From positions 1-38,589 of IMG/VR virus record IMGVR_UViG_3300031841_001733: 38,589 bases of DNA. One strand, written 5' to 3'. Shown here piece after piece: positions 20,495 to 26,421 of this stretch (position 1 is the first letter of the stretch; each line of letters begins with the position of its first letter). The notes beneath the pieces are model-generated. The model had not been told where the DNA came from and did not search any database. It saw nothing but the letters and a program-made list of their open reading frames with translations. A program made the translations under genes and the position numbers. The DNA is from a virus.

Positions 20495-20651
20495 AGTCCT
20501 CGGGATGAACTCTCGGGGACTTGTTCATGCACTAGAAGAAACATTTCCACCTACTAACCCTATACCTGACGATACAATGCAAAAAATTATGTACCGATCT
20601 GGTCAACGTAGTGTCGTTGAGTGGGTCATTAAATACTTGGAGGAAGAATAA
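20472..20651 (+). CDS. small hypothetical protein, 59 aa
   Basis: ATG 20472 is preferred because the upstream part of this frame is only an off-frame read of nrdB. The product ends with a conserved-looking helix (IMYRSGQRSVVEWVIKYLEE) that I recall from other cyanophages. It overlaps nrdB by 23 bases and the next gene by TAATG, at the transition from nucleotide genes to head genes. The function is unknown. Confidence 0.6.
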   Translation: MTSPNMLEVLGMNSRGLVHALEETFPPTNPIPDDTMQKIMYRSGQRSVVEWVIKYLEEE

Positions 20652-21175
20652 TGGCAAGTCAATCAAGCTTTGCAGCTGGTATCCCTAGCATCGAAGAGCA
20701 AAAAAGATTGCGGCAGCAATATCTAGATCGTCTGGCTCAGGAACGACAAGCACGTGAAGCCCAAGCTGATTTTGTATCTAATATCCCTAGCATCGAAGAG
20801 CAAGAAAGATTAAGGCAGCAGATGCGTGATAGACTTGCTGCTGAAGCTGAGCCGGAAGCTCCACTAGGTCAAATTAGTGGTGTCAGCAGGGATGAATTTG
20901 AGGCAAGATTTAACAAAGCTAGGAAAGCTAGGCAAGAAGCTGCAACAGCTAGTGAACTTCGTTTCCAAGAATTGACTAATCAATTTAGGAAAGCTTTCGC
21001 ACAAATGATGGGTCCTGGTTATGGTCGTGATCAAGCTATCCGCGCAGGTAGAGGCATTCGATTTGCCGACCAGGGTTCTGGTACTCAGGCACGACCACAA
21101 CGTATTGGTGGACTTAGTGGAACATTCGGTCGTGCTAGTGACCGTCTAATGCAAATTTCTGGACTTAATGTGTAA
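20651..21175 (+). CDS. coiled-coil head-region protein with internal repeat, 174 aa
   Basis: Mostly helical and charged. The segment IPSIEEQKRLRQQ near residue 11 is repeated as IPSIEEQERLRQQ near residue 45, and the DNA is repeated too. A second helical region (FEARFNKARKARQEAA) follows, then a Gly-rich end (RIGGLSGTFGRASDRL). It is placed directly before the portal gene (TAATG at both ends), so a virion or assembly role is likely. No T7 equivalent is recognised. Confidence 0.6.
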   Translation: MASQSSFAAGIPSIEEQKRLRQQYLDRLAQERQAREAQADFVSNIPSIEEQERLRQQMRDRLAAEAEPEAPLGQISGVSRDEFEARFNKARKARQEAATASELRFQELTNQFRKAFAQMMGPGYGRDQAIRAGRGIRFADQGSGTQARPQRIGGLSGTFGRASDRLMQISGLNV

Positions 21176-24343: not shown

Positions 24344-24685
24344 ATGAAAACTCTCGCTCTCCCCCTTGTGGTACTTCTTGGTGCCGCAGCACCCGTTTCT
24401 GCACAGACCTATGCCAACGTGGAGGCTAACTCCGGTTGGTCAGGTTCTGAACATGCAGGCACTGTTATCGACGCACACGTGGGTTACAAGAAGGACAACT
24501 GGTACGTCCAAGCTGGACCTTCCAGAGTTTCCAACAATTCTGATTCTGACATCGAGTTTTCTGGCAAAGCCGGAGCTTCTTTTGTTGTTTCAGAAAAAAT
24601 TACTGGATACGGGGAAGTTTCCTTTATGACTGGTCAAGATGACACCAGTTATGGCACTAAGCTTGGCTTTACTTACGATTTCTGA
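24344..24685 (+). CDS. secreted outer-membrane-like beta protein, 113 aa
   Basis: Residues 1-20 form a signal peptide (MKTLALPLVVLLGAAAPVSA, then QTY). The mature 93 residues alternate polar and hydrophobic residues in strands (WYVQAGPSRVSNN, EFSGKAGASFVVSEK, TGYGEVSFMTGQ) and end LGFTYDF, a C-terminal aromatic like the Bam-recognised signal of outer-membrane barrels. It may alter the host surface or block superinfection; this is inference. It is small for a full barrel, so it may oligomerise. Confidence 0.65.
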   Translation: MKTLALPLVVLLGAAAPVSAQTYANVEANSGWSGSEHAGTVIDAHVGYKKDNWYVQAGPSRVSNNSDSDIEFSGKAGASFVVSEKITGYGEVSFMTGQDDTSYGTKLGFTYDF

Positions 24686-24701
24686 TTAGACTCAGGCCGT
24701 A

Positions 24702-24752
24702 CGTTCATCCTTCGGGACGCAGGCAACCTACTCATGGAACGGGGGGTAGGTT
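24702..24752 (+). ncRNA. probable glutamine riboswitch (downstream-peptide / glnA type)
   Basis: CGTTC (24702-24706) pairs with GAACG (24737-24741). TCC-TTCG-GGA forms an inner hairpin (24708-24717). AACCTAC (24725-24731) pairs with GTAGGTT (24746-24752), making a pseudoknot. The order CGTTCATCC, TTCG, GGACG, GGAACGGGGGGTAGG matches my memory of the glnA and downstream-peptide RNA motifs, which bind glutamine in cyanobacteria and cyanophages and sit ahead of short ORFs. A 37-aa ORF starts 16 bases later. The pseudoknot arm is near its ribosome binding site, so control of translation is likely. Confidence 0.75.
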
Positions 24753-24767
24753 ATTTCTGAACTGATC

Positions 24768-24881
24768 ATGTCTCAAATCGAAGTCCGTCAACGCATCCGT
24801 GAACAGCAAGCCAAGCAAAAAGAGATTGTCTTGAAGTATCGGGGCGTTGCCTACATTGTCAAGCGCACAATTAAAAACTGA
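24768..24881 (+). CDS. riboswitch-controlled short peptide, 37 aa
   Basis: ATG 24768 lies directly after the riboswitch. The product is basic and helical (VRQRIREQQAKQKEIVLKYR) and ends VAYIVKRTIKN. The LKYRGVAY segment resembles the short DUF4278 motif known from cyanobacterial proteins (recollection). Peptides after this RNA class are the expected regulated product, but what this one does is unknown. Confidence 0.65.
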   Translation: MSQIEVRQRIREQQAKQKEIVLKYRGVAYIVKRTIKN

Positions 24882-24930
24882 ATACAAAGAGCTTTCCACA
24901 ATTGTAAAGCCCGAAGGAACGGTTTAAGGA

Positions 24931-24953
24931 GTGGGTGTTCGGAAAGCGCCCAC
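24931..24953 (+). repeat. hairpin between two small genes
   Basis: GTGGGTG pairs with CGCCCAC (7 bp, one wobble) around a 9-base loop. No T-run follows, so it may stabilise RNA rather than stop transcription. Confidence 0.4.
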
Positions 24954-24976
24954 GCCTACACACAACAAAATATATC

Positions 24977-25129: not shown

Positions 25130-25284
25130 AAAGCTTGGGAGGCACCTCAGAGTCGGACCTCCCTTGCCTTGGCTTTTGGCCCGTACGCGGACACCCATTA
25201 GCCGTCTAGACGGTGGGATAGACCACAAAAAATTTTCTTGAACGTTCGAGAGTCGTAAATACTTTTTTAATTTTATCCGAACAA
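25130..25284 (+). promoter_or_regulatory. leader of the major capsid gene
   Basis: It contains a GGGAGG/CCTCCC hairpin (25137-25163) followed by a T-containing stretch (possible terminator), the perfect palindrome CCGTCTAGACGG (25202-25213), and CTTGAACGTTCGAG (25237-25250), a palindrome with one wobble pair. No host-type promoter with correct spacing is seen, so a phage RNA polymerase promoter is expected here by analogy with T7 φ10. There is no Shine-Dalgarno sequence before ATG 25285. Confidence 0.45.
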
Positions 25285-26421
25285 ATGGCACATCAATCTA
25301 CTGACTTGACCACGAGCCTTACACGGCCTGGTCAATCTAACTCTGCGGGTGACGCCCGCGCCCTGTTTCTCAAGCTTTTTAGCGGCGAGATGTTCAAGGG
25401 TTTCCAATACAATGCAATCGCTCGTGACCTCGTCATGAAGCGGACCCTGCAGAACGGCAAGTCCATGCAGTTCATCTACACGGGTCGTACAACTGCTGAG
25501 TTCCATACACCTGGAAATGCAATCCTTGGTAACAGCGACGGTGCACCTCCCGTGGCTGAAAAGACCATCACGGTTGACGATCTGCTGATCAGCTCTGCAT
25601 TCGTGTATGATCTGGATGAGACCCTGTCTCACTATGACCTGCGTTCTGAGATCAGCCGCAAGATCGGCTATGCTCTGGCTCAGAAGTATGACCGTCTGAT
25701 TTTCCGTGCTGTCACCCGTGGCGCACGTGCTGCATCCCCGGTCACCAAGACCAACTTTGTGGAGCCCGGTGGCACTCAGATCCGTGTTGGCGCTACTGCT
25801 AACGCTTCTGATGCCTATGATGCTCAGAAACTGACAACCGCCTTCTTCGACGCCGCTGCTGCGATGGACGAAAAGGGTGTGTCTTCTGAGGGTCGTGTCG
25901 GTATCCTGAACCCCCGTCAATACTATGCACTGATTCAAGAAGTTGGCAACAACGGCCTGATCAACCGTGACGAGCAAGGCGATGGCCTGCAGTCCGGTCA
26001 GGGCATTGTGGAGATTGCTGGTATCAAGATCTACAAGTCCATGAACATTCCGTTCTTCAGCCAGTATGGCACCAAGTACGGTACTGGTTCTGCTACCAAC
26101 CCTGGCACCACCTCCCCCGGTAACACTGGCTCCTTCGTCGGTGAAGCTGTTGAGGATGCTGCTAACGATGTCACTGGCATCAACAACGAGTACGGTGAAG
26201 AAACCGAATTCGCTAACTCCTGTGGTTTGATCTTCCAACGCGAAGCCGCTGGCTGCGTGGAAGCAATTGGTCCTCAGGTCCAGGTCACCAGCGGTGACGT
26301 CTCCGTGGTTTACCAGGGTGACGTGATCCTGGGTCGTCTCGCCATGGGCGCTGACTACCTGAACCCTGCTTGTGCAGTGGAACTGTTTGCTGGCACTGCT
26401 ACCGCACCTGCCGCATTCTGA
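25285..26421 (+). CDS. major capsid protein (gp10A-like), 378 aa
   Basis: Builds the icosahedral head (HK97 fold). It matches the T7 gp10 family by order (after scaffold, before tail tube A) and by motifs: ARALFLKLFSGEMFKGF at the start, TITVDDLLISSAFVYDLDE (spine region) and GRVGILNPRQYYALIQ. Codon use differs from its neighbours (more CTG, CGT, GGC and higher GC), typical of a very highly expressed gene. A strong terminator follows. Confidence 0.97.
   Translation: MAHQSTDLTTSLTRPGQSNSAGDARALFLKLFSGEMFKGFQYNAIARDLVMKRTLQNGKSMQFIYTGRTTAEFHTPGNAILGNSDGAPPVAEKTITVDDLLISSAFVYDLDETLSHYDLRSEISRKIGYALAQKYDRLIFRAVTRGARAASPVTKTNFVEPGGTQIRVGATANASDAYDAQKLTTAFFDAAAAMDEKGVSSEGRVGILNPRQYYALIQEVGNNGLINRDEQGDGLQSGQGIVEIAGIKIYKSMNIPFFSQYGTKYGTGSATNPGTTSPGNTGSFVGEAVEDAANDVTGINNEYGEETEFANSCGLIFQREAAGCVEAIGPQVQVTSGDVSVVYQGDVILGRLAMGADYLNPACAVELFAGTATAPAAF

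Follow-up and report, generated by a model that had tools for sequence, protein, structure and literature searches.

The Glutamine-II riboswitch (Rfam RF01704; older name Downstream-peptide, also called the type 2 glutamine riboswitch) is a known RNA class, described as binding glutamine and as linked to host DUF4278 genes (PMC2864571, PMC6316151). In marine picocyanobacteria, DUF4278 genes follow this riboswitch and their expression is activated by glutamine (PMC6316151). Regulation of glutamine synthetase has been suggested for one host protein of the DUF4278 kind, while the DUF4278 part of Synechocystis IF17 was reported to be dispensable for IF17 function (PMC6316151). Glutamine riboswitches are also known from other phages: the type 1 (glnA) class, RF01739, was reported for the T4-like cyanophage S-CREM1, and a glnA-like riboswitch at the tmRNA gene for the methylophage Melnitz (PMC9964418, PMC9004378).

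Here we describe a Glutamine-II riboswitch and its downstream peptide in a viral DNA of 38,589 nt (hereafter, the window), and in T7-like marine cyanophages related to it. The sequence and structure conserved in the host Glutamine-II of Prochlorococcus and marine Synechococcus are all present in the phage element, which also shares the 5′ leader position and a short open reading frame (ORF) downstream (PMC2864571, PMC6316151). By contrast, the phage copy lies in the head-gene block and the host copy at a host gene, the phage ORF encodes one YRG unit instead of three, and a further helix, termed P0, was detected in phage copies but not in the host copies examined. The window copy has its ligand class in common with the glnA-type elements of S-CREM1 and Melnitz, from which it differs in RNA class and downstream genes. 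Our literature search, which covered few subscription papers, turned up no description of P0 or of YRG micro-proteins with a single unit, and none of the module as a part of T7-like cyanophages. A phage copy of the Downstream-peptide motif has reportedly been noted since 2010.

Using cmscan, we compared the whole window with all 4227 Rfam families. RF01704 aligned over its full model (1–60 of 60) with 49.8 bits (E = 2.7e-9 over the window and all families), far over its gathering cut-off of 33 bits, and no second gathering-level match was obtained in the 38.6 kb. The original prediction had placed a hairpin plus pseudoknot at 24702–24752, with the right coordinates, and had assigned it to a "glnA / downstream-peptide" class. 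The second of these names stands, whereas the glnA model (RF01739) reached only 14.7 bits, under its cut-off of 35, and this class is ruled out. A riboswitch model built here, R1, scores the window aptamer at 70.8 bits. Coordinates of all features are collected in Table 1.

Table 1. Features of the riboswitch–peptide locus and its surroundings in the window.
Feature	Position	Strand	Basis or remark
Phage_OMP gene	24344–24685		immediate upstream neighbour of the riboswitch
P0, 5′ strand	24683–24696 (pairs 24683–24689, 24692–24696)	+	duplex with 24756–24768, swap test
Glutamine-II (Downstream-peptide, type 2) riboswitch aptamer	24699–24751	+	RF01704, R1 model, covariation
Pseudoknot of aptamer	CGUUC 24702–24706 with GAACG 24737–24741	+	sequence
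P1 of aptamer	24708–24710 with 24715–24717	+	sequence
P3 of aptamer	24726–24733 with 24744–24751	+	sequence
P0, 3′ strand	24756–24768	+	covers the ribosome-binding region and the start-codon A
37-aa ORF (P0001), MSQIEVRQRIREQQAKQKEIVLKYRGVAYIVKRTIKN	24768–24881	+	predicted N-terminal helix and one DUF4278-like LxYRGxxY unit
AACGGTTTAAGGA and hairpin	24909–24957		stem covaries
Capsid-leader RNA	25169–25228	+	models A6/R2
Capsid gene	25285–26421		preceded by a CxxC-type ORF

An alignment of 26 diverse phage copies shows that 94.3% of the aptamer pair cells are formed, and that 49 cells are changed on both sides, compared with 16.7 ± 3.0 in shuffles; sliding the pairing partner by one column abolishes this signal. 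Compensatory changes occur in seven of the eight P3 pairs and in two of the four P1 pairs, and the CGUUC/GAACG pseudoknot is invariant in all 26 copies. The helices therefore covary in related phages, and the original prediction withstands this check as it does the Rfam search, two outcomes that could have refuted it. Computation thus identifies the aptamer, and we infer with very high confidence that the window RNA binds glutamine. A group of variant riboswitches (L288, L289, L310, L318, L326 and similar loci) keeps P3 and the GAACG loop, while the 5′ half is changed or missing and overlaps the end of the upstream gene; the YRG ORF is still present on their 3′ side.

A pattern scan of IMG/VR yielded at least 120 stretches and, with phage records added, at least 127 aptamers were examined, a sample biased by the search pattern and by the scope of the matches listed. 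Within this set, a YRG ORF of 13–51 aa lies behind every one of the 123 aptamers with intact downstream sequence; it starts with ATG in 119 cases, mostly 23–27 nt past GAACG. Among the same matches, aptamer and ORF are located in a T7-like head-gene block in every case, on the strand of the capsid gene, which lies downstream. The usual upstream neighbour is psbA or a Phage_OMP gene, psbA and hli are the usual neighbours of the pair overall, and aptamer and capsid gene are separated by anything between about 230 and more than 1400 nt, with genes such as Phage_OMP inserted. The site between scaffold and capsid is a variable cassette, where psbA, hli, Phage_OMP and further genes come and go. The T7-like scaffold–capsid context that had been proposed for the window is thus general across the phages sampled. 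In the window itself, scaffold and capsid are the wider neighbours only, with Phage_OMP immediately upstream and the CxxC-type ORF before the capsid gene.

Owing to the bias of the pattern scan, we also selected contigs by capsid protein alone, obtaining 79 contigs whose phages are closely related to that of the window, with capsid identities of at least 80%. A riboswitch model built here detected the element in 61 of the 79; 66 of the contigs have 450 nt or more on the 5′ side of the capsid gene, and all 61 are among these. All 61 riboswitch-bearing contigs contain the YRG ORF, whereas 17 of the 18 riboswitch-less contigs do not, and the one exception is truncated by the contig end. Whole phage genomes gave a similar linkage: 13 of 21 passed the Rfam cut-off, two more (S-SBP1 and S-CBP3) matched weakly, and all 15 have the YRG ORF, while neither aptamer nor ORF was found in the other six (S-B28, Syn5, P60, S-CBP42, S-CBP2 and S-SRP01). 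Genomes that carry the aptamer have a single copy, whose place is fixed in many genera. In P-SSP7, for instance, the riboswitch spans 20522–20575 and a 17-aa ORF spans 20592–20642, at which the record used here has no annotated gene. Most sampled T7-like marine cyanophages carry a predicted glutamine-sensing RNA and a tiny, mostly unannotated peptide 5′ of the capsid gene.

The window ORF begins 16 bases past position 24752, as originally predicted. We are nearly certain that it encodes a peptide: pN/pS is about 0.28 among its relatives (0.37 and 0.28 for phage YRG peptides, values that pool non-independent sequence pairs), and third-position variability also supports coding. A Pfam scan of the peptide returned DUF4278 (PF14105) alone, with 18.3 bits (E = 0.003), which is below the gathering cut-off of 25.3 and covers only profile positions 37–57, the last 21 of 57. 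DUF4278 also matched 25 of 29 phage peptides of the same type (best E = 5e-7) and all 13 host proteins behind Glutamine-II (best E = 1e-11). The window peptide contains the LxYRGxxY core, whose L, Y, R, G and Y are invariant in the 29 phage peptides; this core, like the riboswitch class, is shared with the small DUF4278 proteins of picocyanobacteria and with the N-terminal part of IF17 (GifB).

The Prochlorococcus proteins behind Glutamine-II are 55–58 aa long and contain three units (LTYRGKNY, ELTYRRNVY and LNYRGVNYTK), whereas the phage peptides, at 13–51 aa, contain a single one. Bare phage peptides comprise 13–23 aa, such as that of P-SSP7, MKVTFVYRGVAYTRVIG. In peptides of 29–51 aa, the helix type to which the window peptide belongs, the unit is joined to an N-terminal helix with many charged residues. 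In profile comparison, the bare peptides fall on the third host unit, with a probability of 93% and E = 3e-7, and hhalign also placed the helix-type peptides there. AlphaFold models are modest, with a helix at residues 3–25 and an uncertain tail for the phage peptide (mean pLDDT 81.8), and a pLDDT of 66.8 for a host DUF4278 protein. The peptide's role had been called undescribed, but a family is on record, since PHROG 5049 (function unknown, with no riboswitch link in its entry) matches 24 of the 29 helix-type peptides.

P0 connects the aptamer to the start of this peptide. The 20 nt on the 5′ side of the aptamer show complementarity to the stretch from P3 to the start codon, as compared over 92 distinct phage loci. 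The native duplexes have a mean energy of −7.03 kcal/mol, compared with −5.80 ± 0.18 kcal/mol for swapped partners, and 0 of 300 swaps were as strong; relatedness among the loci inflates this test, although several unrelated sequence solutions are present nonetheless. A control flank 21–45 nt upstream gave z = −1.7 in the same test. This coevolution was computed at the population level, P0 being individually significant in only 18 of the 92 loci. In host copies the swap test detected no P0, at loci that are few and similar and with low power. The window duplex reaches −11.5 kcal/mol; its 5′ strand overlaps the Phage_OMP stop codon, and its ribosome-binding region has no Shine–Dalgarno GGAG. 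Further examples include L271 (GUAGACUCCA/UGGAGUCUAC) and a compensatory change between two relatives, GACUCCA/UGGAGUU in L001 and GACUUCA/UGAAGUU in L272, by which CUCCA/UGGAG becomes CUUCA/UGAAG; the pairing is kept while the Shine–Dalgarno sequence is altered.

In S-TIP37 (UUCGUACG/UGUACGAA), P0 extends into the pseudoknot strand. In the window, P0 and pseudoknot do not overlap, and their mutual exclusion there is therefore a steric argument. With ViennaRNA, the accessibility of the ribosome-binding region was alike in the free (0.454) and forced-aptamer (0.467) states, in a run that took in only 15 nt of 5′ flank and allowed P0 in the bound state, and a shuffled control shifted more; since both states are equal in this respect, thermodynamics alone does not demonstrate switching. 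P0, which is new here, is likely an anti-RBS helix belonging to a switch that turns translation ON, and we lean slightly towards regarding it as the expression platform through which the riboswitch switches.

Other RNA elements were observed near the capsid gene. One, a conserved structured RNA that separates the YRG ORF from the capsid gene and is also present at 20682–20743 in P-SSP7, has the pattern TTGGC..hairpin..GCC-GTCTAGACGGTGGGATAGACCACAA, shows compensatory changes in two helices and was matched in 79 of 79 capsid-selected contigs. No Rfam family matches it, and Syn5, P60 and three host genomes gave no hit. This capsid-leader RNA is possibly a leader of the capsid gene, a processing site or a promoter; a repeated phage promoter is disfavoured by its single copy per genome. 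Its end, GGGATAGACCACAA, resembles the start of the T7 phi10 leader, GGGAGACCACAA. Directly 5′ of it, several loci (L034, L047, L101, L243 and others) show a hairpin like a tRNA T-arm (GGGAGGTTCGAGTCCTCCC or AGGGGTTCGATTCCCCT), where ARAGORN found no tRNA; NATL1A-7 has an annotated tRNA-Gly at this position. The AACGGTTTAAGGA element with its hairpin is found also in L001, L085, L272, L333, Syn5 (L258) and S-TIP28 (L263), and its stem covaries (GTGGGTG/CGCCCAC, GTGGATG/CGTCCAC, GTGGCTG/CAGCCAC and GTAGATG/CATCTAC). PhotoRC-I matched it on the minus strand with 25.2 bits, below the cut-off of 45, and was rejected. The U–G wobbles of the stem fit the plus strand better, which may make the strand assigned to PhotoRC-I worth checking.

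Taken as a whole, we favour, by a modest degree, a model in which the phage type 2 glutamine riboswitch controls translation of a minimal DUF4278-like YRG peptide, made from the T7-like late transcript and acting in trans. Translational control is natural given the short distance from GAACG to most start codons. When glutamine is scarce, the 5′ flank of the aptamer would pair with the ribosome-binding region and start codon as P0, and no peptide would be made. Ample glutamine would let the CGUUC/GAACG pseudoknot form and disfavour P0, opening the ribosome-binding region, so that the YRG peptide would be produced just before the capsid gene. By analogy to the type 2 switch of Prochlorococcus, the direction is probably ON (PMC6316151). 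Of the three YRGxxY units found in the host's DUF4278 protein under riboswitch control, the peptide retains one; it would most likely act on the host target of that protein in nitrogen assimilation, as a mimic or as a one-unit competitor. We consider the chances of such an action in trans on host nitrogen control to be even, the target being one that we infer. The original prediction had linked the peptide to glutamine synthetase or host nitrogen control. The nitrogen link gains support because the peptide is a one-unit relative of DUF4278 and because Glutamine-II also precedes host DUF4278 genes (PMC6316151), whereas direct inhibition of glutamine synthetase is not implied, as the DUF4278 part is dispensable in IF17 (PMC6316151).

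The position of the pair, always on the strand of the capsid gene and just 5′ of it in the contigs sampled, could instead indicate a role in cis, with glutamine-dependent YRG translation serving as a device, of the leader-peptide or coupling kind, by which capsid synthesis follows the nitrogen supply. The shortest YRG ORFs, of only 13–17 aa, and the conserved structured RNA between mini-ORF and capsid start would suit such a device. We nevertheless regard it as unlikely: the varying spacing and the intervening genes make a role in capsid expression less probable, the amino acid sequence of the peptide is conserved and related to host proteins unconnected with capsids, and the capsid-leader RNA is kept in nearly all capsid-selected phages, including five riboswitch-less ones with full upstream sequence. 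A true glutamine riboswitch might also serve a peptide with another purpose, for example binding to the photosynthetic apparatus, the membrane or the ribosome, glutamine then only signalling the timing of infection or the state of the host. Its usual neighbours psbA and hli, the charged helix of the helix-type peptides and the lack of any known target for one-unit YRG peptides are compatible with this reading, but the host relatives, which stand under a Glutamine-II class riboswitch, are tied to nitrogen regulation (PMC6316151), and we give this reading roughly half the weight of an even bet.

Because genes come and go at this site, aptamer and peptide might even be leftover host DNA in the cassette, neutral or of slight use. 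This is very improbable in view of the purifying selection on the peptide, the compensatory changes in both P3 and P0, the fixed single-copy location in many genera and the strict co-occurrence of aptamer and ORF. Returning to the switch acting in trans, its broadest form is a near-universal module of T7-like cyanophages, in which an ON riboswitch and its coevolving P0 would release a one-unit YRG micro-protein to hijack or block the three-unit DUF4278 nitrogen regulator of the host, nitrogen assimilation being set by cellular glutamine through the phage late transcript; we put this form forward tentatively, at somewhat less than even chances.

The model proposes a concrete expression platform for type 2 glutamine riboswitches, and the natural one-unit peptides, down to 13–17 aa, offer a means to seek what DUF4278 proteins act on in the host. 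It is above all for photosynthesis genes that cyanophages are known. If the model is true, these viruses would also sense and adjust the nitrogen metabolism of their hosts, by means of a sensor and a micro-protein at the capsid locus.
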